Origin: Candidatus Iainarchaeum sp.
GTDB taxonomy: Archaea; Iainarchaeota; Iainarchaeia; JAGGVJ01
DNA length: 10,078 nt
Direction: 5' to 3'
NCBI GenBank assembly: GCA_021158055.1
Contig: JAGGVJ010000024.1
Coordinates: 1-10,078 of the forward strand
Below the pieces are notes generated by a model. The model saw only the letters and a program-made list of their open reading frames with translations. It was not told the origin of the DNA and did not search any database. A program made the translations under genes and the position numbers. Below, piece after piece: positions 1 to 10,078 of this stretch (the stretch's first letter is position 1; every line of letters begins with the position of its first letter).

Positions 1-108
1 CCGTAAGTAATACATCTGAAACCGTAAGTAATACATCTGAAACCGTAAGTAATACATCTGAAACCGTAAGTAATACATCTGAAACCGTAAGTAATACATC
101 TGAAACCG
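1..108. repeat. 21-bp tandem repeat array, five perfect copies, truncated by window edge
   Basis: Five identical 21-bp units lie at 1-21, 22-42, 43-63, 64-84 and 85-105, followed by the first three bases of a sixth (106-108) before the sequence changes. There are no spacers, so this is a tandem array and not CRISPR. On the plus strand only the frame starting at base 3 is open; it reads VSNTSET five times and continues to a TGA at 192-194, so the array might be the tail of an upstream gene. All three minus-strand frames of the unit are also open. The two frames shared with the downstream methyltransferase and its neighbour contain TAA. The array starts exactly at the window edge, so the true copy number is unknown; a contig broken in a repeat would look like this. 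Confidence 0.95.
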
Positions 109-194
109 CGGATATTATATTATACTACACCGCAACACGTTCAAAGGGTGAAAGACGTTCAAAAGGTGAAAGAAATACAGGGAAAACTTCTTGA
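3..194 (+). other. Possible 3' end of an upstream reading frame (repeat-encoded tail)
   Basis: This frame is open from the window edge to a TGA at 192-194, 64 codons including the stop. It would encode five copies of VSNTSET, then a short stretch, then two copies of RSKGER from the 18-bp duplication. Every repeat period here is a multiple of three, which keeps the frame. It would overlap the methyltransferase start by up to 47 bp, much as the NcsA and ThiI genes overlap at the other end of the window. No start is visible and the composition is low complexity, so this may equally be non-coding. Confidence 0.2.
137..172 (+). repeat. 18-bp tandem duplication carrying two Shine-Dalgarno motifs
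   Basis: The segment 137-154 is repeated at 155-172 with one mismatch (A versus G in the run before GGTG). Each copy carries GGTGA (147-151 and 165-169), which is the archaeal Shine-Dalgarno core and the same motif that precedes the DRG gene at 805-809. The duplication therefore doubled the ribosome binding site of the methyltransferase gene. Both GTG codons that could start the gene (148 and 166) lie inside these GGTGA motifs. Confidence 0.85.
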
Positions 195-819
195 GATAGA
201 TTATTCCAAATCAGTTTACAGCCCGGCTGAAGACTCGGTTCTTCTTGCAGAAAGCGTCAGCGAAAGCATTGAAGAAAACCACTCGGTTCTCGAGATCGGG
301 TGCGGAACAGGTTTTGTATGCCTGCAGCTTGCCGGCAAGGCAAGGCATGTCACGGCAGTTGACATCAACCCCAACGCTGTTTTGCTTGCAAAGAAAAACG
401 CGAAAAAAAACAACATCAAAAATATTTCCGTGTTTGAATCAGACCTTTTTTCCAGAATCAGCACAGAAAAGAAGTTCAACATAATTGTTTTCAACCCGCC
501 TTACCTGCCAGACGACCACATCGGCTCAAAGGACATGCTTGACAAAGCCCTTATCGGGGGTCCTACCGGCCGGGAAGTATTGTTTTCGTTTTTTAAGGGT
601 GGTGGTGGTGGGAAGAGAGGAGTTAAAGACCACTTAAAGGAAAACGGGAAAGTTTTTTTTGTAATTTCTTCTTTCACAGGACAAAAAGAAGTTGAGGAAA
701 AACTCACAAGACACGGTTTTTGCTCCAGGGTGATCGCGTCAAAAAAACTTTTTTTTGAAACGCTGTTTGTTTACCTCGCAGGTTTTAAGAAGCAGGCCAA
801 AAACGGTGAGAGAAAATGA
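148..819 (+). CDS. HemK/Mtq2-like class I methyltransferase, probable release factor glutamine N5-methyltransferase
   Basis: The product (223 residues from GTG 148) is a SAM-dependent Rossmann methyltransferase. The archaeal/eukaryotic Mtq2 family methylates the glutamine of the GGQ motif in release factor 1, usually with the partner Trm112. Visible signatures are the PAED motif near residues 26-29, motif I EIGCGTG at 49-55, an acidic VDINPNA motif at 71-77, and the NPPY signature of amide methylases at 116-119. The C-terminal part keeps GREV at 141-144 and FVISSFTG at 171-178. A glycine run (151-155) is inserted in the helix before KVFF and looks like a local GGT expansion. The start is uncertain: GTG 148, GTG 166 or ATA 175 are in frame. 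By comparison with the DRG gene, the GGTGA at 165-169 points best to ATA 175. The gene ends in an ATGA overlap with the DRG gene, so the two are probably cotranscribed. The family is clear; the exact substrate is inferred. Confidence 0.88.
   Translation: MKDVQKVKEIQGKLLEIDYSKSVYSPAEDSVLLAESVSESIEENHSVLEIGCGTGFVCLQLAGKARHVTAVDINPNAVLLAKKNAKKNNIKNISVFESDLFSRISTEKKFNIIVFNPPYLPDDHIGSKDMLDKALIGGPTGREVLFSFFKGGGGGKRGVKDHLKENGKVFFVISSFTGQKEVEEKLTRHGFCSRVIASKKLFFETLFVYLAGFKKQAKNGERK
598..612 (+). repeat. GGT trinucleotide run inside the methyltransferase gene
   Basis: Four GGT codons and one GGG encode five glycines, preceded by a lysine and followed by GKRGV-like residues. The stretch sits between FSFFK and KDHLKENGK, where family members normally run directly through a helix into the next strand. 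It is in frame and the conserved C-terminal motifs continue after it, so the gene is not broken. Confidence 0.75.
805..809 (+). promoter_or_regulatory. Shine-Dalgarno site of the DRG GTPase gene
   Basis: GGTGA lies six bases before the ATG at 816, inside the end of the methyltransferase gene. It matches the archaeal 16S 3' end core and serves as the reference for judging the other starts in this window. Confidence 0.8.
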
Positions 820-1904
820 GCCTTGAGGAAAAAATAACCGAGCTTGAAGACGAAATCAGAAGGACTTCCTACAACAAGGCAACAATGCACCACATCGGAA
901 GACTGAAAGCAAGAATCGCAAGACTAAAAGATAACGCGAGAGCAAAAGCAAGCAAGAAAGGGCCAAAACACGGCTACAGCGTGAAAAAAACCGGGGACGC
1001 CACAGTCGTGATGGTCGGTTTTCCAAGCGTCGGAAAATCCACCCTCTTAAACAAGCTGACCAATGCAAAATCAACTATCGGTGCGTATCACTTCACCACT
1101 TTGACTGTTGTTCCTGGGATGATGATCTACAACCATGCAAAAATACAGCTTCTGGACATCCCCGGACTCATTAAAGGCGCAGCAGTTGGAAAAGGCAGCG
1201 GAAAACAAGTGCTTTCAGTTATCAGGAACTCCGACTTGATACTTATTATAGCTGACCCCAAGGAACCGCAGCAAGTTGAAATACTTAAAAACGAACTTTA
1301 CGAAGGGGGTTTCCGGTTAAACGCGGTGCCGCCTGATGTGATAATCAAAAAGAAAGACAAAGGCGGAGTCAACTTCCTCAGCACTGTCAGTTTGCCTGAG
1401 CTTGACGAAGAAATGGCGCGCGAGGTCTTAAACGAGTACTCAATCCACAACGCTGACGTGCTTGTCAGGGAAAAAATCGGCTTGTCTGAGTTCATTGACG
1501 CCGTGAACGGAAACAGGCATTACGTCCCGATGGTTGTGGTCTTCAACAAAATAGACACGGTTTCTGAAGCAAAACTCAAAAAAGCAGTGGAAACAATAGA
1601 CTGTGATGTGTTGTGCGTTTCGGCGTCTTCTGAAAAAAACCTTGACAAGTTGCGCGAAAGCATTTTCAGACACGTCGGCCTGATAAGGGTTTTCCTGAAA
1701 AAAATCGGCGAAGAGCCGGACCTTTCAGAACCGCTTATCATAAAAAAAGGCACGCGGATTATGGGCGTGTGCAGAACAATTCACAAGCGGTTTGCAGCGG
1801 ACTTTAAATTCGCACGGGTGTGGGGCTCATCAAAATTCGACGGGCAGCGGGTGTCAAAAGGATACGCGGTAAGTGACAAGGACATCGTTGAACTGCATTT
1901 TTAA
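816..1904 (+). CDS. DRG/Rbg-family GTPase with TGS domain
   Basis: This 362-residue protein belongs to the OBG-related DRG (Rbg) GTPases, found in archaea and eukaryotes, which associate with ribosomes and RNA. A charged helical N-terminus (1-45) precedes the G domain: P-loop GFPSVGKS at 68-75, switch I FTTLTVVPG at 93-101, DIPG at 114-117, NKID at 244-247 and the SAS loop at 269-271. The stretch between G3 and G4 (about 150-230) contains the extra region typical of DRG proteins, with the VPPDVIIKKKDKGG segment. The C-terminal TGS domain runs from about 289 to 362 and includes the family pattern VWGSSKFDGQRV. The length matches the family (about 360-370). The ATG overlaps the upstream stop as ATGA and has a GGTGA site six bases upstream, so the start is firm. 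All nucleotide-binding motifs are intact. Its pairing with a release-factor methyltransferase suggests a translation operon. Confidence 0.96.
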   Translation: MSLEEKITELEDEIRRTSYNKATMHHIGRLKARIARLKDNARAKASKKGPKHGYSVKKTGDATVVMVGFPSVGKSTLLNKLTNAKSTIGAYHFTTLTVVPGMMIYNHAKIQLLDIPGLIKGAAVGKGSGKQVLSVIRNSDLILIIADPKEPQQVEILKNELYEGGFRLNAVPPDVIIKKKDKGGVNFLSTVSLPELDEEMAREVLNEYSIHNADVLVREKIGLSEFIDAVNGNRHYVPMVVVFNKIDTVSEAKLKKAVETIDCDVLCVSASSEKNLDKLRESIFRHVGLIRVFLKKIGEEPDLSEPLIIKKGTRIMGVCRTIHKRFAADFKFARVWGSSKFDGQRVSKGYAVSDKDIVELHF

Positions 1905-1939
1905 CTGCTTGAACTTCAGGTTTTTTCCGCGCATTATTT
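1905..1939. terminator. Short convergent intergenic with T-rich stretch
   Basis: The 35 bases between the convergent DRG gene and the minus-strand exported-protein gene contain a run of six T after TTCAGG (1921-1926), consistent with an archaeal T-rich terminator for the plus strand. TTCAGGTTTTT occurs at 1915 and again at 1939, across the stop codon of the minus gene, so this may be another small duplication. There is no convincing hairpin. Confidence 0.4.
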
Positions 1940-2950
1940 TCAGGTTTTTCCTTCCACGTTTTCTTCCATTTCCTGAAACTGCTTTTTTATTTTTTCATCT
2001 TCATTTCTTGCCTTTATCGTAAGAATCACAAGAACTGCAATAAGAATCATGGCAACTGCCAGAAGAAAAAAACTGCTGTCTGACTTGACGCTGACAGTGA
2101 ATTCTCTTGAAACTTCGTGGTTTCCGAGTTCGTCGTCAAAAACTGTTTCGACAATCACAGGAAAACTTCCGCTTACCTGAAGGGCTTTGAAACAAAACTT
2201 TTTTTGCATGGCCGAATCAGTCGAGTTCCCGTTAAGCAAAGGGATGACAATTTCTTCACTGTTGCAGCCTGCTTTGATTAAATCCATGTCAAATGCGCTG
2301 CCAAGCTTTATTGTCGTGCTGATGTTCCTTATGTTTTCGTCTGAAATGTTTTTGAAATCAACAGTTATTGCGTTTGAGTCACCGTGCCTAACAGCGTTTC
2401 TTTCAAGAGAGTAACTGATTTGAAGAGGGCTTTTTACTATGCGCACTTCAGAGCCGATAAACTCAGACCTGTTTGAAATCCTTGCGTTTACAAAGTGAAT
2501 GCCTTCCGGAACATCAGAAGGCGTCTGGAAAACCACCTGAATGGTTTTTGCATCATTCGGCCTGAAGTCATAAACATCAATTGTTTTTTTGTCAGCGAGA
2601 AGTCCTTTGTCGTCAAGTATTTTCACATGCTCGCTTCCGGACACTTCAAGCTGAAAGGATTTTGTTTCAAAAGAAAAGTTCTTCAAAGTTATTATTGCAG
2701 TAAATTTTTCCTGCGGGTAAAAAATTGCCTGCCCGAAGTTTTTCGGAACAACTTCAATTATCCCAAACGGAGGCGTTGAAAAATCGGTTTCGGAAACGTC
2801 TTGCGCTTGTGTTTCACTGGCGTTCTGCCCGATTAAAACCGTGCTGTCTTCCGCTGAAAAAGCAGCTGGCAAAACAAAAAATAAAGAGGTCATGAAAACA
2901 AGTGCAGTAAATGCAATAATCTTATTTTTCCCATGGAAACACGTCTTCAT
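1940..2950 (-). CDS. Exported, C-terminally anchored protein with Ig-like beta domains, function unknown
   Basis: I do not recognise a specific family. From ATG 2950 the product has 336 residues. It begins with a positively charged N-terminus and a hydrophobic core (about 10-31), giving a signal peptide with a likely AFSA cleavage near residue 33. The outer part (about 60-290) looks like two beta-sandwich domains of the kind seen in archaeal surface proteins: strand-like segments about 62-172 and about 175-290, with only two cysteines (229 and 253) beyond the signal region, which could pair. A membrane helix at about 293-312 is followed by a charged, helical cytoplasmic tail rich in E and K. 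The longer frame back to 3028 was not used because it would put 26 residues in front of the signal peptide, and because GGGGAG at 2958-2963 sits seven bases before ATG 2950. The start overlaps the upstream minus-strand gene by 29 bp, so the two form an operon and may work as a pair. Confidence 0.8.
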   Translation of the reverse strand: MKTCFHGKNKIIAFTALVFMTSLFFVLPAAFSAEDSTVLIGQNASETQAQDVSETDFSTPPFGIIEVVPKNFGQAIFYPQEKFTAIITLKNFSFETKSFQLEVSGSEHVKILDDKGLLADKKTIDVYDFRPNDAKTIQVVFQTPSDVPEGIHFVNARISNRSEFIGSEVRIVKSPLQISYSLERNAVRHGDSNAITVDFKNISDENIRNISTTIKLGSAFDMDLIKAGCNSEEIVIPLLNGNSTDSAMQKKFCFKALQVSGSFPVIVETVFDDELGNHEVSREFTVSVKSDSSFFLLAVAMILIAVLVILTIKARNEDEKIKKQFQEMEENVEGKT

Positions 2951-4226
2951 CTGTTTTCTCCCCGTTGCTTTTTGCTTTTTTTTTATCTGGATGAAAATCA
3001 TGCCCGCCCATTCCAAAAGTGGCTGCAATGTCTTCGCGGTACTTATAACCTATGTAGAGCAGGATTAATAACGCTAATCCAAAAATTACTTCCCACTGAA
3101 AATATGACTGCGCCGGATTTTTTCCGTTATTTTTTATCTGGCTGATTAAATCAGACACCGTGATAAATTTTTTATCTGCTGCCTCAAAGTTCTTGTTTTG
3201 AATATCCTGCGTTAACTCCGACCAGGTGTCAAAAAGGTCATTTACTCCTTTTGCATCTTTATAATCTGAACCGCTGTTCACAATGTCCCTTACTTCGTCT
3301 TCAATTTCACTTACCTTCTCAAGTATGCTTTTTTCAAGATTGTCTCTTTCCGCGACTTCGCTTATACGCTGCACTGAAAGTTCAGAATATTGTGAAGCTT
3401 CTGTTTTTGATATCGAAAATATTTTTTCTGACGCTTCCTGATAATTCACCGCCGCACTATTAAATTGTCTTGATTCCATCAGCAAACTGGTTCCAAGCAC
3501 AATGTTTATGAAATCGCTTTTTTGTTCAGGCAACAATTCACTGCTGAAAATAATTTCGTTTGTCTGGGGGATCATTATGTCATAGTCTTCAATTTTCTCA
3601 GCCAACAGCGATATTTCCTCAAAGGCAAAGGAGTATTCTGCGGAAACAGTTTCTTTTAACTCAAAACCCGGGCTGTTCAAAAACTGCGATTCTGTTTCCG
3701 AAGCATCTGAAATGGCTGATTCGACCAAAAGAGCTTGTTCTTTAATGAACTTCAAAGAACTCAAAAGAGCATTGACGCTTGACTTCACACCCGAATCAAC
3801 ATCTTCACAGGAGACAATAAACTTGAGGCCGTATGTTTTTTTTTCAATGTCGTTTGCAAGCGAATGCATGTTTCCGGCATTTGACTGCGTAAAAAACGCA
3901 TTGTTCTGCCTCAAGTTGGCAATTTCAGAAAACACAAACGCTGTTTCAAGAACATCTGCTATTTTTTTTGAATCTTCCAAGACACTGCCGCTTGATGAAT
4001 CCACAAGAATGTATGAAGAAATTCTCCCGGCTTTTTGAATCTTTCCGACCCAATAGCCTTGCTCTTCAAGCCCGATCGGGGTTGAATTTAAAATCGTGGC
4101 ATCTTCACCGCTATAAAGATAGTTCTTCTGAATAAAATCAGCTGCTTCAACCTGATTTACACTGCTTGCGCCCGCGACCTGAAACAAAAGCAGGACCGAT
4201 ATCAAAAATACGTTTATCTTTGCCAC
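2922..4226 (-). CDS. Exported helical protein with C-terminal membrane anchor, function unknown
   Basis: No family is recognised. The product of 434 residues begins with a signal-peptide-like segment (1-20, core FLISVLLLFQVAGA). Residues about 27-85 (AADFIQKN, then GYWVGKIQKAG and YILVDSSSGSVLED) have the size and pattern of a PepSY-like beta domain; this is a resemblance only. Residues about 85-365 are mainly alpha-helical with heptad-like stretches, for example 200-214 and 285-318. A membrane helix lies at about 377-394, followed by a charged cytoplasmic tail that ends in DVFPWEK. The outside part has a single cysteine (140). The start is a GTG at 4226 with only a weak upstream GGTG; an in-frame TGA lies shortly upstream, so no long extension is possible. 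With the next gene it forms a two-gene operon of single-pass, outward-facing proteins with charged inner tails, suggesting a complex at the cell surface. Confidence 0.78.
   Translation of the reverse strand: MAKINVFLISVLLLFQVAGASSVNQVEAADFIQKNYLYSGEDATILNSTPIGLEEQGYWVGKIQKAGRISSYILVDSSSGSVLEDSKKIADVLETAFVFSEIANLRQNNAFFTQSNAGNMHSLANDIEKKTYGLKFIVSCEDVDSGVKSSVNALLSSLKFIKEQALLVESAISDASETESQFLNSPGFELKETVSAEYSFAFEEISLLAEKIEDYDIMIPQTNEIIFSSELLPEQKSDFINIVLGTSLLMESRQFNSAAVNYQEASEKIFSISKTEASQYSELSVQRISEVAERDNLEKSILEKVSEIEDEVRDIVNSGSDYKDAKGVNDLFDTWSELTQDIQNKNFEAADKKFITVSDLISQIKNNGKNPAQSYFQWEVIFGLALLILLYIGYKYREDIAATFGMGGHDFHPDKKKAKSNGEKTDEDVFPWEK
2958..2963 (-). promoter_or_regulatory. Shine-Dalgarno site choosing the start at 2950
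   Basis: On the minus strand GGGGAG is followed by seven bases and then ATG 2950. It lies inside the end of the upstream gene, which fits translational coupling of the two exported-protein genes. Confidence 0.75.
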
Positions 4227-4400
4227 GTCAATACACTCTCACACCGATAACATCAATACATTGTACACCAATACTTTATGTTAGATTTGCATTGATACAT
4301 TGCATAAATACAATAAGAATAAATCCACAAATCTTTATAATTGTTTAGTGAAAAACAACAAACATAAAAAACTATTAAACAAAAACCAAAGGGTGTAGTT
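4227..4400. promoter_or_regulatory. Divergent promoter region between exported-protein operon and TrmJ-like gene
   Basis: This AT-rich stretch separates two divergent transcripts. For the plus strand, TTTATAA at 4334-4340 is a good TATA box, predicting a transcript start near 4360 and a leader of about 40 bases with GGTG at 4392-4395. For the minus strand, CATAAAGT (complement of 4273-4280) predicts a start near 4250. The part nearest the minus gene is filled with imperfect short repeats around ATACATTG (4252-4260, 4295-4303) and CAATAC (4229, 4251, 4269). Confidence 0.5.
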
Positions 4401-5114
4401 ATCTTCAAAGTAATTTTAATCGAACCTGAATACCCGCAAAACCTCGGCCTCACTTGCAGGGCAATGAAAAATTTCAGATTGTCGCAACTTGTCCTGGTTA
4501 ACCCGAAAGCAAAACCAAGTGAAAGCTCTGCTATTTCAAGGTCAATGCACGGGCGCGACGTGCTTGAATCCGCAAAAACAGTTGATTGCATTGAAAAAGC
4601 CCTTGAAAACAGTGACCTGAGCGTAGGGTTCACTGCAAAAAGCTTTTTTGAGGACAAAATTCTCCGGACCCCCGTGAACCTGCGCGAGCTCTCGGCAAAA
4701 CTCAAGGGAAAAACAGGTTCTGTGGCGCTTGTCTTTGGAAGGGAGAGCAGCGGGCTTTCAAACAAAGAGCTTAAGCAATGCGACCTGACATGCGTGATTC
4801 CTTCAAACCCTGATTACGCGACACTGAACATTTCCCACGCGTGCGCAATTGTGTTCTTTGAGCTTTTTTCAGGCGGGTTTGGAAAAAAACTGCCTCTTGC
4901 AGACAAAAACACAAAGCAGACAATATTTGATTCTTTTTCAGACCTGGTATCTTCAACAAAATTTGACTTCAAGCGGCCGCAGGTGATGAGCACTGCATTC
5001 AAACGCGTTTTGAACAAAAGCCTGATGACTCAAAGAGAAGCGAACGTTATCGCATCTGTCTTTTCACGGCTTTGTGAAAAAGAAAAACAAAAAAACAAAA
5101 AAAACTCACAGTAA
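4401..5114 (+). CDS. trmJ: TrmJ-like SPOUT tRNA 2'-O-methyltransferase, apparent AUC start
   Basis: The protein belongs to the SpoU/TrmJ branch of the SPOUT methyltransferases, knotted dimers that methylate the 2'-OH of a tRNA ribose with SAM; archaeal TrmJ modifies C32. Motif 1 (KVILIEPEYPQNLGLTCRAMKNF, residues 3-25) is recognisable only if translation starts before the first ATG at 4464. Motif 2 is LVFGRESSGLSN at 110-121 and motif 3, the knot, is VIPSNPDYATLNISHACAI in the 132-150 region. The C-terminal helical extension (about 177-237) matches the family. In frame, TAA at 4365-4367 closes the upstream side and there is no ATG, GTG or TTG before 4464. The best initiator is ATC 4401, five bases after GGTG, giving 237 residues, the usual length. 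A start at 4464 would remove 21 conserved residues. A sequencing error is the alternative. The gene is monocistronic and convergent with the bPH2 gene. Confidence 0.85.
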   Translation: MFKVILIEPEYPQNLGLTCRAMKNFRLSQLVLVNPKAKPSESSAISRSMHGRDVLESAKTVDCIEKALENSDLSVGFTAKSFFEDKILRTPVNLRELSAKLKGKTGSVALVFGRESSGLSNKELKQCDLTCVIPSNPDYATLNISHACAIVFFELFSGGFGKKLPLADKNTKQTIFDSFSDLVSSTKFDFKRPQVMSTAFKRVLNKSLMTQREANVIASVFSRLCEKEKQKNKKNSQ

Positions 5115-5203
5115 CTTCGCCTGCTTGCCTGCGCTGTTTTCTGCTTCAGTAGCGTTGCTTTTAGCTTCAGTAGCTGAATAGCATTGCTTTCAACTTCAGT
5201 AGT
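5115..5203. other. Convergent intergenic region filled with duplicated gene tail
   Basis: The 89 bases between the convergent TrmJ-like and bPH2 genes are mostly repeat copies (see 5144-5221). A T-stretch near 5137-5140 could end the plus-strand transcript. No hairpin is convincing. Confidence 0.5.
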
Positions 5204-5221
5204 TCAATAGCATTCTTTCAG
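5144..5221. repeat. Imperfect tandem repeat, about 28 bp, at the 3' end of the bPH2 gene
   Basis: Three copies start with CTTCAGTAG at 5144, 5165 and 5194. The first is shortened (about 21 bp, lacking the middle CTGAATAG); the second and third are 29 and 28 bp and differ by a few bases. The third copy contains the stop codon (complement of 5204-5206) and last codons of the bPH2 gene. The other two lie beyond the stop, so the gene tail seems to have been duplicated downstream. Confidence 0.8.
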
Positions 5222-7618
5222 CTTGTCGTAAAATTCCCTGTAATCCGGAATGTCAACAACCACCAGCTCCGCGGTGCTGCTTCCCGTGGTGTTCACTGAA
5301 ACGTTTCCGTTTCCAAACATTTTGTTCAGCATGCCTTGATTGACATTGAGGTGGTCTATTTTTCTAAACAGGATAGACGTTTGTTTCTTGTACAAAATGC
5401 CTGATTTTTCAACAACCCTGTAGGGCTCAATGGAAAAAGACCTTACCTTTACGCTCCAGACCGCAAGCAAAACCACAACAGGCAAAACCAACAGCAGCGG
5501 AATCAAAAACTGCAAGAAAAGAACAAACAACAGCGTGACAACAACAGCCGGAACGCCCCAAACAACAATGGTGTTTGAAACATCCGGTTTCGCCGTGAGC
5601 ACCTGCGTTGATTCCTCAACGTAAGCCTGAATGTTCCGCTCAATGTCTTTGACTTCCTGCGCATTCGGGTTCCTGTAAAAAATTAGGTCTATCAATTCAT
5701 CTTTACTGCTTACGTCTTCAATGAAATCCACCTTAAAGCTGTTGGATATAACTACCGCGGTCTTCCCCTGCTGGACAACGCGTTCCCCTGCAATGTTAAA
5801 CTGCACAGAGCCGGACTGAGAAAACGGGTATTTCACTGTTGAAATGTCTTTTATGTCGTCGCGCAGGACAAAGTAAACTTCTTCAAAAAATATTCCCCTT
5901 GAACAATAGACATAGTTTTCAAAAAACGAAAGGTTCACCCTGTTTTGATAAACTGACTGGTAAACTGCAAAAATCAAAAACCCGACAATAATGATGACCG
6001 GGACTGCAAGAAACAAGGGCTCAAACAACAACGCTCCCGCAGAAAATGCAAACACGCCCAAAACCAATGCGACTGAAACAAAAAATGCCCCTTTCAACAG
6101 GTCAATCAAAGAAAAGCTCGGGTTCATTTCATAAATCTTTTCCTGTGGTTTTATCCCTGTTTTCGCAATCACTGCCTCGTACAGTCCCTCTGATTTTTTT
6201 ATGTTCCTGAACTGGAGGTCTTCTGCCGAACCGATCGACCAAAAATGAATGCTGCATGTGTTAAACCATTTGTCTATGAAGTTTTCCTTGAATATGACTG
6301 CGGTGATTTTCTCGTTTGCAAATTCAACGTTTTTCGAGTGGATAAAATTGTAACGCTGGGCCATGTTGTTTTCTTTGATGTTGTATTTTGTCGCGCCGAC
6401 TTCAATCACCTTCAATACAACAAGAATAACAATGACAACCAGCAAAGGAGGGAAAATCAGTGCAAACGGCAACAGCACAAGCAACGGTGCAAGTGTCCTT
6501 GCGCTGTCCATTTTGTGCTCTGAAGTATAAGTTGTGTCCCTGTCAAGCGCATGTTTTTGGTATGCTGCCTCTTGCGCGGTGCCGGAAACTTCTTCTCCTG
6601 CGATCCCCTGGGCCTGCGCAGTTTCTGCTGCCTGTGTCTTTGTTCCGACAAGCGAACCGGTTTTGCTTATGAGCTCATCAATGTTTGATTCAAGTTTCGG
6701 GCCGTTTGCCATGTTTTTGAACAGTATTTCCTGGGAACTGCCCTGGCAGCTGATCTTGACATCATACAAGCCGAATATTTTGTCAATCAATGTCTGGGTC
6801 ACAGTGGAATCAGACAGATTTTCTATGGGGATGACCGAGTAGTTTCTTGAAAGGAATCCTTCACTGTAAGTGATCGTGTCTGAATAAACATTATACACCC
6901 TGTTTTTCAGGTCAAGGAAGCGAAATGCAGAAACCAGAATCACTGCCGCCAAAACCAGCAGGGCGCCAAAAAACAACAAAGCAAGATCCACAGGGAGAAT
7001 ATCTGAAAGCGCGCTTGAAAGGCCTTCTGTACCGAAGTCAAAAACAATGTAAATAAAAAACAAGAACGCTCCCGCGATACCGCCGACTGTTTCAAAAAAC
7101 ACACCTATTGTGCTTGGCTTTTCCTGCTGGACCAGCTCTGTTTTTGACAGGCTGAAACCGTTGCTTTTGAGCATGTCCTGAATGTGTTCATAGATTTTTT
7201 CAGGTTTGTTTATGGAAGACATATATATTTCCGAAAGGCCGCTTCCCGCTGATTCAATGGCAATGCTTCCGGTTTTAAACAGTTTTTGTTCAATGAACGG
7301 CAATTTCATGTCAATGTGGGTAACGTTTCTTATGACAAGCTCGGTTTCGCTGTCTGAAATAATGGTTCCTGATTTCCGGATTATTTTGTCTGCAAAAAAA
7401 ATGTATTTTTCCTTGTTGTAGGAAACATTCAGGCAATAATAACAAAATGCTTCCAGCGCAACGAAAACAACTGCCGGATACACGACAGGCAGGTTAAAAA
7501 AAGCATTTGCAATAATGTGAATCACTGCAAAAATCACCAAAAGCAAAATTGAAATCTTGGCAAAGCCATAAGTCACAAACGAGGTCCTGTTAGGTTTAAG
7601 TTCATAAGAGTCAGCCAT
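5204..7618 (-). CDS. Multi-pass membrane protein with five bPH2 (YdbS/YdbT-like) modules
   Basis: From ATG 7618 the product has 804 residues. It alternates hydrophobic segments with soluble domains five times. Membrane segments lie at about 20-63, 172-232, 376-404, 504-553 and 684-722; soluble domains follow at about 66-155, 240-320, 409-490, 560-650 and 727-804. The soluble domains look like bacterial PH domains type 2 (formerly DUF304). The pattern is clearest in the last one: SFSIEPYRVVEKSGILYKKQ, then FRKIDHLNVNQG and a FGNGNVSVNTTG strand. YdbT of Bacillus subtilis is known to have fewer modules, so five is unusual. A low-complexity linker rich in A, Q and E spans about 324-360. The function of the family is unclear; in bacteria YdbS/YdbT have been linked to tolerance of certain toxins and to the envelope. 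The start at 7618 is supported by a TATA box centred 27 bases upstream (leaderless mRNA); the frame extends to a TTG at 7690, which is less likely. Confidence 0.85.
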   Translation of the reverse strand: MADSYELKPNRTSFVTYGFAKISILLLVIFAVIHIIANAFFNLPVVYPAVVFVALEAFCYYCLNVSYNKEKYIFFADKIIRKSGTIISDSETELVIRNVTHIDMKLPFIEQKLFKTGSIAIESAGSGLSEIYMSSINKPEKIYEHIQDMLKSNGFSLSKTELVQQEKPSTIGVFFETVGGIAGAFLFFIYIVFDFGTEGLSSALSDILPVDLALLFFGALLVLAAVILVSAFRFLDLKNRVYNVYSDTITYSEGFLSRNYSVIPIENLSDSTVTQTLIDKIFGLYDVKISCQGSSQEILFKNMANGPKLESNIDELISKTGSLVGTKTQAAETAQAQGIAGEEVSGTAQEAAYQKHALDRDTTYTSEHKMDSARTLAPLLVLLPFALIFPPLLVVIVILVVLKVIEVGATKYNIKENNMAQRYNFIHSKNVEFANEKITAVIFKENFIDKWFNTCSIHFWSIGSAEDLQFRNIKKSEGLYEAVIAKTGIKPQEKIYEMNPSFSLIDLLKGAFFVSVALVLGVFAFSAGALLFEPLFLAVPVIIIVGFLIFAVYQSVYQNRVNLSFFENYVYCSRGIFFEEVYFVLRDDIKDISTVKYPFSQSGSVQFNIAGERVVQQGKTAVVISNSFKVDFIEDVSSKDELIDLIFYRNPNAQEVKDIERNIQAYVEESTQVLTAKPDVSNTIVVWGVPAVVVTLLFVLFLQFLIPLLLVLPVVVLLAVWSVKVRSFSIEPYRVVEKSGILYKKQTSILFRKIDHLNVNQGMLNKMFGNGNVSVNTTGSSTAELVVVDIPDYREFYDKLKECY

Positions 7619-7639
7619 GCAATAAGAAACAGTAAACTG

Positions 7640-7652
7640 TTTTAAATAATTA
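7640..7652 (-). promoter_or_regulatory. TATA box for leaderless transcription of the bPH2 gene
   Basis: On the minus strand TAATTATTTAAAA is centred about 27 bases before the A of ATG 7618. This is the normal TATA-to-start distance in archaea, and there is no Shine-Dalgarno motif before the ATG, so the mRNA probably begins at the start codon. Confidence 0.6.
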
Positions 7653-7697
7653 TTCAATGCAATATGACAAAGAAACAAAACAAAGACCAAAGCAAAA

Positions 7698-7729
7698 TAT
7701 TTATATATTGAAAAAATAGTCTTTATATA
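7698..7729 (+). promoter_or_regulatory. TATA boxes for the NcsA-ThiI operon
   Basis: Two TATA-like elements lie in the divergent region: TATTTATATATT at 7698-7709 and TTTATATA at 7722-7729. The second predicts a transcript start near 7750, leaving a leader of about 140 bases before the likely start at 7891. That is long for an archaeal mRNA and contains the 24-bp repeat. Confidence 0.5.
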
Positions 7730-7806
7730 CCGTTTTGCATTAATTTTTTATTTTTTCAGTTTGTATGATTTTTTTAGTCGGTGTTTTTTCAAACAACTTG
7801 TTTTTC

Positions 7807-7864
7807 AGTTGCATTAATACATTCACATTCAATTGCATTAATACATTCACATTCAGTTGCATTA
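7807..7864 (+). repeat. 24-bp tandem repeat, 2.4 copies, in the leader of the NcsA-like gene
   Basis: Copies lie at 7807-7830 and 7831-7854 (one mismatch), with ten bases of a third at 7855-7864. Each full copy contains GCATTAATACATT. The period is eight codons, and the stretch is open in the frame of the downstream gene, reading SCINTFTF and NCINTFTF from the ATG at 7765. The same TTGCATTAAT motif appears once more at 7735-7744. Confidence 0.85.
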
Positions 7865-7878
7865 AACCCGCAAACAAC

Positions 7879-7882
7879 GGAG
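7879..7882 (+). promoter_or_regulatory. Shine-Dalgarno site choosing the start at 7891
   Basis: GGAG ends eight bases before ATG 7891. The in-frame ATG at 7765 has no such site and would add a repeat-encoded, hydrophobic segment. Confidence 0.65.
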
Positions 7883-7890
7883 AAAATCAA

Positions 7891-8805
7891 ATGTATCAAA
7901 AAACTGATCTGGAATTCAAAGAGTACTTTGAAAAAAAAATAAGGTACACGATCAGAAAATACAAGCTGTGCAGCAAAAAAGACAGGATAGCAGTGGCTGT
8001 GTCAGGCGGAAAGGATTCTACTGCCTGCCTTTATGTCCTCAACAAACTGGGTTTCAATGTTGAAGCAATTACAATAGATGTGCTGATTGGAGACTACACA
8101 AAGCAAAACCTTGAAAACCTCAAAAAGTTCTGCGCTGAAAACGACATAAAACTCAACACAGTGTCTTTTCAGGAAGAGTTCGGCAGACCACTTCGCTCTA
8201 TCCGCTCGGTTGTGAACTCAAAAGGTCATGATTATTCATCGTGCCGGATTTGCGGAATACTTAAAAGATACCTGCTGAACAAGTATTCAAAAGAACTGGG
8301 TTTTGACTTTCTTGCAACCGGCCACAACATGGACGACGAGGCACAGACGTTTCTGATGAACGTCTTCAAAAACGACCTGGTGCTTGCAAAAAGACAGGGC
8401 CCGGTTTCAGCAGGCAACGAAAGCAGGATATTTGTAAAAAGAATAAAGCCGTTGTACCTTTTGTCAGAAAAAGAAACTGAAATGTACTCGAAACTCATGA
8501 ACTTCCCTGTAAACTACGGCATCTGCCCTTGTTCTTCAAACGCTTTCAGGCGAAACTTCATCAACATTTTAAACAAGTTTGAGGAAAAGCACCCGAGCGT
8601 AAAAAGCAACATCGTGAACTTTCAGGAAAAACTTGCACAGGAAATAAAAAACCAAAACAACAATGCAAAAATCACAGCCTGCACACTTTGCGGGGAGCCT
8701 TCAAGCAACAGCGTCTGCAGAACCTGCCAGATACTCACTGCATTAAAAGAGGATGAACATGACAAACAAACAAAAAAGCAAGCCGGATACTGTGACAGTG
8801 CATAA
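7891..8805 (+). CDS. NcsA/TtuA (Ctu1)-like tRNA 2-thiouridine synthetase, N-terminal zinc finger missing
   Basis: The product (304 residues) adenylates a tRNA uridine and replaces its 2-oxygen with sulfur; family members act on U34 (NcsA/Ctu1) or position 54 (TtuA). The ATP PP-loop SGGKDS is at 38-43, the CRIC pair C118/C121 and C212 in GICPC match the three cysteines that hold the iron-sulfur cluster, and the family motif ATGHNMDDEAQ is at 142-152. RIKPLYLLSEKE (184-195) is also typical. A C-terminal zinc finger is formed by C264/C267 and C276/C279. Relatives usually begin with a second zinc finger before EYFEKKIRYTIRKYK; here it is absent, and the sequence upstream is repeat-derived instead. 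The start at 7891 rests on GGAG at 7879-7882; an in-frame extension from 7765 is possible. The 3' end overlaps the ThiI-like gene by 47 bp. Which uridine is modified cannot be told from sequence alone. Confidence 0.9.
   Translation: MYQKTDLEFKEYFEKKIRYTIRKYKLCSKKDRIAVAVSGGKDSTACLYVLNKLGFNVEAITIDVLIGDYTKQNLENLKKFCAENDIKLNTVSFQEEFGRPLRSIRSVVNSKGHDYSSCRICGILKRYLLNKYSKELGFDFLATGHNMDDEAQTFLMNVFKNDLVLAKRQGPVSAGNESRIFVKRIKPLYLLSEKETEMYSKLMNFPVNYGICPCSSNAFRRNFINILNKFEEKHPSVKSNIVNFQEKLAQEIKNQNNNAKITACTLCGEPSSNSVCRTCQILTALKEDEHDKQTKKQAGYCDSA
8749..8752 (+). promoter_or_regulatory. Shine-Dalgarno site choosing the ThiI start at 8759
   Basis: GAGG lies six bases before ATG 8759. It directly abuts the ATG at 8753, which is too close, so 8759 is preferred although the two differ by only two codons. 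Confidence 0.55.
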
Positions 8806-10078
8806 TGACAAACCGGACACAGTGATAGTGCATTACGACAAACCGGACACAGTGATAGTGCATTACGACGAGATAGGGCTCAAAGGAGCAAACAGACCTT
8901 ACTTTGAAAAGCTTTTGATGAAAAACATTGAAAGAAAACTAAGCAGCATTTCAGGGCACCCGGGCAAAGACAAAGGCAGCACGGTTGCCAGGAAACACAT
9001 CCGGGTTGCCGGGAAACACATCCGGGTTGCCGGAAAACACATCCAAATCGCCAGGGAACACGGCCAAATCGCCTTAAGCATCGGCGCGGGCGACAATCTC
9101 TTGGAAATAGCGGATGCTCTTTCAAAAATTCCTGGAATCGCGTTTTTTTCGTTTACAAAAAAAACAGGCCTTGACATCAAGTCAATCAAAGAAAGCTCTG
9201 TTGAATTCCTCAGGAAAGCAAAGTTTGAGTCGTTCAAGGTAAACTCAAAAAGGCACAACAAAAACGTGCCTTTCACTTCAATGGAGCTAAACGCATTGAT
9301 CGGCGAGGTGCTGATTGACGCATTCGGCAAAAAAGTGAAAATGAAGGGAGCTGACCTTGTCTTGAAAATCGAGGTTTCAAACAAGTTCTCTTACCTGTCC
9401 TGCAAAGACATTACAGGGGTGGGGGGACTCCCGACAGACAGCAGGCAAAAAGTGGTTTCGCTTATGTCAGGCGGGTTTGACAGTCCCGTCGCGTCTTACC
9501 TAATGATGAAAAGAGGCTGCGAAGTCATCCTTGTGCATTTCCAAAACCAGAACCTGTTGTCTGAATCTGTCGAGAATAAGATTGTCCGGCTTGCAAAACA
9601 CCTTTCAAAATACCAGGTAAAAACAAAGCTTTTCATCGTGCCTTTCGGGGAGATCCAAAACGAGATAATCTCAAAAGTCCACTCCGGTGTTAGGATGCTT
9701 GTCTACAGAAAGTTCATGATTGAAATTTCATCAACTATTGCAGACAAGGAAAAAGCAGGGTTTTTGGTTGTGGGGGACAGCTTGTCGCAAGTTGCGTCGC
9801 AAACCTTTGAAAACCTAAACGCTGTCTATTCCGGCTCAGAAAAGCACATCTTTTCCCCTTTGATCGGGCTGAATAAGCAGGAAATCATAGATATTGCAAA
9901 GGAGATCGGAACATATGACATCTCGGCGCTTCCTTACGGCGACTGCTGCAGTTACTTTGTTCCAAAGCACCCTGAACTCCGGGCAGGCAAGGAAACCCTT
10001 GAAAAATGCAAGGAAGCCATTGAATCTAAAAAATTAGTCGAAAGCGCAGTGAAAAACGCCAGGGTTTTTGTGTTTTAA
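8759..10078 (+). CDS. thiI: ThiI-like tRNA 4-thiouridine synthetase with two internal tandem expansions
   Basis: The product (439 residues) resembles ThiI, which makes 4-thiouridine at tRNA position 8 by ATP-dependent sulfur transfer. The order is an N-terminal ferredoxin-like domain (to about 135), a THUMP domain (about 136-220, ending near SYLSCKDITGVGGLPTDSRQ) and a PP-loop domain with LMSGGFDSPVASY at 235-247. VVGDSLSQVASQTFENL lies in the 337-353 region and PYGDCCSYFVPKHP at 392-405; C396 or C397 is the likely catalytic cysteine. No rhodanese domain follows; the protein ends at the last base of the window. Two stretches are unusual. Residues 8-37 repeat KPDTVIVHYD three times before the conserved EIGLKG, and residues 76-103 repeat a seven-residue unit four times (VARKHIR to IAREHGQ). 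All repeats keep frame and the conserved core is intact, so the gene is probably functional. It overlaps the thiolase upstream, forming a tRNA thiolation operon. Confidence 0.93.
   Translation: MTNKQKSKPDTVTVHNDKPDTVIVHYDKPDTVIVHYDEIGLKGANRPYFEKLLMKNIERKLSSISGHPGKDKGSTVARKHIRVAGKHIRVAGKHIQIAREHGQIALSIGAGDNLLEIADALSKIPGIAFFSFTKKTGLDIKSIKESSVEFLRKAKFESFKVNSKRHNKNVPFTSMELNALIGEVLIDAFGKKVKMKGADLVLKIEVSNKFSYLSCKDITGVGGLPTDSRQKVVSLMSGGFDSPVASYLMMKRGCEVILVHFQNQNLLSESVENKIVRLAKHLSKYQVKTKLFIVPFGEIQNEIISKVHSGVRMLVYRKFMIEISSTIADKEKAGFLVVGDSLSQVASQTFENLNAVYSGSEKHIFSPLIGLNKQEIIDIAKEIGTYDISALPYGDCCSYFVPKHPELRAGKETLEKCKEAIESKKLVESAVKNARVFVF
8780..8869 (+). repeat. 30-bp tandem repeat, three copies, at the NcsA-ThiI junction
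   Basis: Copies lie at 8780-8809, 8810-8839 and 8840-8869. The last two are identical; the first differs at six positions. In the ThiI frame they read KPDTVTVHND, KPDTVIVHYD, KPDTVIVHYD. The first copy also holds the TAA stop (8803-8805) of the upstream thiolase gene. Confidence 0.95.
8984..9067 (+). repeat. 21-bp tandem repeat, four copies, inside the ThiI N-terminal domain
   Basis: Copies lie at 8984-9004, 9005-9025, 9026-9046 and 9047-9067, followed by a partial ATCGCC. They encode VARKHIR, VAGKHIR, VAGKHIQ and IAREHGQ. The first three are nearly identical; the fourth is more diverged and matches the REHG strand expected in ThiI proteins, so it is probably the ancestral copy. Confidence 0.93.

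Follow-up and report, generated by a model that had tools for sequence, protein, structure and literature searches.

Lineage-specific excess of short tandem duplications, probably filtered by selection, in a reduced DPANN archaeal genome

Introduction

Satellite-rich prokaryotes, such as Methanobrevibacter ruminantium and Methanosarcina species, contain scattered, unrelated arrays with coding units that are divisible by three (PMC6749651). In the survey describing them, satellite-rich genomes have more than about 4 arrays per Mb, counted with at least four copies and units of 10 to 200 nt (PMC6749651), and M. ruminantium has 28.3 arrays of at least 4 copies per Mb (PMC6749651, Subirana and Messeguer 2019). 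The 20- to 21-nt tandem repeats of bacteria are constant in size and variable in sequence, with a short sequence common to the units (PMC8161180). Illegitimate recombination or replication slippage in bacteria depends on short homology (PMC2884548), and archaeal PolB and PolD slip in vitro between short direct repeats (PMC4134008). Among the papers searched, none on tandem repeats in DPANN archaea was on point.

The genome described here is of a known kind, being a satellite-rich prokaryote. In 0.566 Mb, 19 arrays of about 4 or more copies were found, or 16 with split contig-end arrays merged, which gives ~28 per Mb by TRF, a program other than that of the survey. The array density is therefore like that of M. 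ruminantium (28.3 versus ~28 per Mb, with different search programs) and is high for archaea in comparison with the published survey, the methods of which differ (PMC6749651). As in other satellite-rich prokaryotes, the arrays are many, short, unrelated, scattered, and patchy among relatives, and the unit is divisible by three in 16 of 17 coding arrays. Unlike in those prokaryotes, the genome is a reduced DPANN genome of 1.15 Mb and the units are mostly 15 to 34 bp, whereas 43% of the M. ruminantium units are above 30 nt and the arrays of Methanococcus voltae derive from AT-rich microsatellites (PMC6749651). A reduced DPANN genome thus grows minisatellites about as densely as the most satellite-rich archaea do. 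The arrays share with the bacterial 20- to 21-nt repeats a mostly noncoding location, species specificity, and a similar unit size, but their unit size varies (noncoding periods range from 16 to 44) and their units lack a common short sequence (PMC8161180). They resemble the products of short-homology slippage in having short direct repeats at their junctions, below the usual length for RecA-type recombination (PMC2884548, PMC4134008), with at least 4 bp of homology in 15 of 21 cases, and in the tolerance of in-frame variants in genes (PMC2884548); they differ in that minisatellite-scale tandem duplications dominate with no rise at the microsatellite scale (PMC2884548, PMC4134008).

Features of the window and the genome sample

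The window, a stretch of 10,078 bp, is an entire contig (C10) of a Nanoarchaeia-type DPANN archaeal genome of 1.15 Mb in 45 contigs. Its genes encode a HemK-like methyltransferase, a DRG-type GTPase, a SpoU-type methylase, a bacterial-PH-domain protein, a TtcA-like PP-loop protein, and ThiI, together with two proteins without a Pfam match. These two proteins, of 317 and 434 residues, are encoded by neighboring genes on the minus strand (1940-2893 and 2922-4226). The PH-domain protein (5204-7618, minus strand) has 804 residues and four bPH_2 (bacterial PH) domain matches. The nearest named relatives of ThiI are Candidatus Woesearchaeota and Nanoarchaeia sequences, with 54 to 57% identity.

The genome sample comprised 566 kb in stretches from 40 of the 45 contigs, about half of the genome. 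The stretches start at contig starts, so that contig-end arrays are slightly overrepresented (8 of 65 strong arrays). The comparison set consisted of 28 relatives (1.13 Mb), all of the same class only, with no shared genus, family, or order. TRF was run with identical settings on the sample, its order-3 Markov version, and the relatives, and a strong array was defined by a score of at least 70, a match of at least 85%, and a period of at least 10. Genes were called with a simple home-made codon-usage finder.

Tandem arrays in the window

The seven arrays listed in the preliminary description are all present, at or within a few bases of where it had placed them; they are given here on the plus strand, as delimited by TRF except for the GGT run. 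The first, at 1-108, is a perfect array of 5.1 copies of the 21-bp unit CCGTAAGTAATACATCTGAAA in an intergenic region with divergent genes on either side. An 18-bp unit repeated 2.1 times at 137-173 lies at the 5' end of the methyltransferase gene and, because each copy contains an in-frame GTG (148 and 166), represents a leader or the extreme N terminus. The glycine run encoded by GGT x4 within the same gene (598-609) is ordinary, with 1.8 trinucleotide runs of four copies per 100 kb in this genome and 1.7 per 100 kb in the relatives. An imperfect array of 2.8 copies of a 28- to 29-bp unit lies between convergent genes (5146-5224) and extends into the final codons of the minus-strand PH-domain gene. 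Farther along, 2.6 copies of a 24-bp unit (7804-7865) lie in the gap between divergent genes that precedes the TtcA-like gene (start at 7891), 3.0 copies of a 30-bp unit (8779-8869) span the TtcA stop (8805) and the ThiI N terminus, and 3.0 to 4.1 copies of a 21-bp unit (8983-9073) lie inside ThiI. The window forms a mild cluster, with 4 strong arrays versus 1.2 expected (P = 0.03, for a window picked after the fact), and another contig has 5 strong arrays within 10 kb.

The array at 1-108 is cut off at the contig end and carries on in contig C19. Eight contigs open with perfect or near-perfect arrays of 82 to 126 bp, the same array is common to both contig starts in three pairs, and other contig ends have overlaps of exactly 127 bp (k = 127). 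The assembler probably broke at arrays exceeding its k-mer length, so that several real arrays would exceed their assembled length and the number of copies at 1-108 is a lower bound. Some arrays grew to at least 5 perfect copies and break short-read assembly. At the right end of C10, within the end of thiI and free of tandem repeats, window positions 9952-10078 match contig C2 (L002) at its right end over exactly 127 bp, so that the two contigs adjoin or branch there.

Density of arrays in the genome sample

In total, 65 strong arrays were found by TRF in the 566-kb sample (11.5 per 100 kb) versus none in its order-3 Markov version, which indicates that the minisatellites are not due to chance. 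The 28 class relatives have 3.1 strong arrays per 100 kb on average, with none in 22 of them. The preliminary description had considered a slippage-prone replication or repair system and had named a repeat density equal to that of related archaea as a result that would speak against its view; at 11.5 versus 3.1 per 100 kb, the densities are not equal, and the genome is duplication-prone in comparison with its relatives. The excess fits a slippage or repair propensity specific to the lineage. One relative from another family (G027; loci L182 and L189-L193) is overall equally repeat-rich, but it was rejected as a parallel case because its size spectrum is a plain decay from short units and its sequence is AT-rich.

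Reading frame and placement of the arrays

The 65 strong arrays comprise 42 noncoding arrays, 6 straddling a gene edge, and 17 coding arrays. Period modulo three leaves remainders 0/1/2 in 13/14/15 of the noncoding arrays and in 16/0/1 of the coding arrays, and with a laxer score of 50 the corresponding counts are 27/31/29 and 41/0/2. Since the noncoding periods are uniform and the coding periods are nearly all multiples of three, frame preservation reflects selection and not the mechanism of duplication. Periods that are multiples of three even in noncoding leaders, as previously proposed from the window, are thus not a property of the sampled genome, in which just 13 of 42 noncoding arrays are divisible by three; that claim rested on two or three arrays, with the 28- to 29-bp array already its exception. 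A frame-preserving duplication mechanism is likewise contradicted by the uniform noncoding periods, the coding ones having been filtered by selection. This clean division, with periods modulo three uniform outside genes and almost fixed inside them, allows mutation to be told apart from selection and puts right an overreading that is easily made.

Noncoding DNA makes up 20% of the sampled bases yet contains 42 of the 65 strong arrays (65%; P = 8e-15). Within their own gaps, the distance of the noncoding arrays from a gene edge is not significantly smaller than under random placement (P = 0.23), and divergent gaps hold a slight excess of arrays (15 versus 9.0 expected; P = 0.03). Among the coding arrays, 9 of 17 are centered at most 100 bp from a gene end, versus 20% expected (P = 0.003), as would be the case were gene termini tolerant of insertions; ThiI is a clear example. 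The clustering at gene boundaries noted in the preliminary description therefore survives as intergenic enrichment and as the gene-end bias of coding arrays, and fails inside the gaps, where no edge proximity was found. The absence of boundary enrichment, which it had named as evidence against itself, accordingly applies in part, to the placement within gaps. "Gene boundaries" here means intergenic DNA plus tolerant gene termini. A duplication system using boundaries, also put forward there, does not hold up, given that the arrays are mostly intergenic, no motif is common to the units, and the gene-end enrichment of coding arrays agrees with the prediction from tolerance.

Junctions and unit sizes

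The units are unrelated, and none of the 5-, 6-, and 7-mers is found in a larger number of units than of random noncoding segments. A dispersed repeat family or common motif was rejected; apart from the split contig-end pairs, only two matches of 13 bases were found. Among the isolated exact two-copy duplications, 15 of 21 have junction homology of at least 4 bp, versus 3% expected, and 6 of 21 have just 0 to 2 bp; the microhomology is ~4 to 10 bp. Among such duplications in the relatives and the other loci sampled, junction homology reaches 4 bp or more in 6 of 18. Junction homology together with unrelated units points to misalignment between short direct repeats, and part of the homology could be a remnant of larger arrays.

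Exact duplications with units of 15 to 34 bp number 48 here (45 with split arrays merged) versus 1 in 490 kb of GC-matched relatives. Mono- to pentanucleotide runs are about as frequent as in these relatives, two-copy units of 6 to 9 bp differ little from them, and units of 1 to 9 bp as a whole are near background. The size spectrum shows a dip at 13 to 14 bp and a rise at 16 to 25 bp, both from small counts, rather than the steady fall of frequency with unit length that is expected from slippage. This preference for 16 to 25 bp is the only unusual part of the pattern and is the one point worth following, and a size range of 15 to 34 bp without a microsatellite signal provides a testable hint about the duplication process.

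Repair genes

Loss of classical mismatch repair is expected to raise microsatellites. MutS is absent from the genome, as from 35 of the 37 genomes of the set, and NucS, RadA, and the PolB exonuclease domain are present. The preliminary description had proposed to check whether mismatch repair genes are missing; MutS is, and its absence is the class norm, whereas NucS is present and microsatellites are at background. For the same reasons, with mono- to pentanucleotide runs not raised, mismatch repair loss was rejected as the cause. Because NucS leaves indels uncorrected (PMC8228993) and microsatellites are not raised, mismatch repair does not explain the excess.

Origin of the duplications

The excess of repeats is real, specific to the lineage, and of an ordinary kind, with de novo minisatellites probably arising by microhomology-linked tandem duplication and being filtered by selection. 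Head-to-tail duplication of segments of ~15 to 34 bp has occurred at many unrelated, mostly intergenic sites. The minisatellites in which this DPANN genome is unusually rich were quite probably born locally by slippage or template switching and then filtered by selection. Birth would take place in the course of replication or gap repair, when direct repeats of ~4 to 10 bp already flanking a segment allow slippage or template switching from one to the other. From two copies on, further slippage or unequal exchange may lengthen or shorten the array. Noncoding DNA would then keep any length, and genes would keep nearly only multiples of three, with a bias inside genes to termini and tolerant loops. 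Because of such a filter, frame preservation and boundary clustering would come from selection rather than from the duplication machinery.

The size spectrum also suits a lineage-specific process that makes units with a built-in size of ~16 to 25 bp, which simple slippage just expands, although this is unlikely. Such a process might involve, for instance, the processing of flaps or gaps, the filling in of staggered breaks, or the footprint of a protein. It would account for the 48 exact 15- to 34-bp duplications versus 1, for the near-background level at 1 to 9 bp and the dip at 13 to 14 bp, and for the lack of the 16- to 25-bp hump in G027, which is also repeat-rich. However, the units vary widely, up to 44 bp in noncoding DNA, and have no common motif, and the filling in of staggered breaks with subsequent joining requires no homology at the junction, which is nonetheless present in 15 of 21 isolated duplications. 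A duplication mutator with such a size signature, adding ~16 to 25 bp per event, sparing microsatellites, and missing from the GC-matched relatives, is an unlikely reading. That the arrays are functional, as binding sites, spacers, or small RNAs retained for their repeat size like the bacterial 20- to 21-nt repeats, is improbable: their mostly noncoding location, sizes centered at ~16 to 25 bp, and slight excess in divergent gaps (15 versus 9.0; P = 0.03) would agree with it, but the size is not constant, no short sequence is common, and repeats are also inserted in coding genes such as that of ThiI.

Several contigs of this metagenome-assembled genome join on perfect arrays at k = 127, where copy numbers are unreliable, and the arrays might accordingly be regarded as mainly assembly artifacts. 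This is very improbable, since copies have diverged in internal arrays, 16 of 17 coding arrays keep frame, and few arrays occur in the relatives, whose assemblies come from similar data. It is hardly credible that the duplication machinery itself keeps frame or targets gene boundaries, as first suggested by a window in which most periods are divisible by three and most arrays lie near gene ends; the 13/14/15 split of noncoding periods and the placement within gaps, not significantly near the edges, both argue against it. Slippage or template switching followed by selection is therefore preferred.

Repeats within ThiI and other genes

The array at 8779-8869 encodes repeats of KPDTVIVHYD, whereas the orthologues have one copy and a short N terminus. 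The array at 8983-9073 encodes 7-residue repeats of the (A/V)xGKHIRV type, which belong to an insertion of 29 residues within the ferredoxin-like domain of ThiI. Both in-frame insertions, the N-terminal repeat extension and the 29-residue insertion, are missing from 14 homologues, mostly archaeal, and the best-matching solved structures align to ThiI with a gap at the 29-residue insertion. Both insertions were made by the repeat duplications, which reshape housekeeping proteins such as ThiI. Elsewhere in the genome, the gene for the RadA recombinase (L025, 1822-2928) contains an in-frame repeat of 2.5 copies of a 24-bp unit close to the N terminus (L025:1848-1908).
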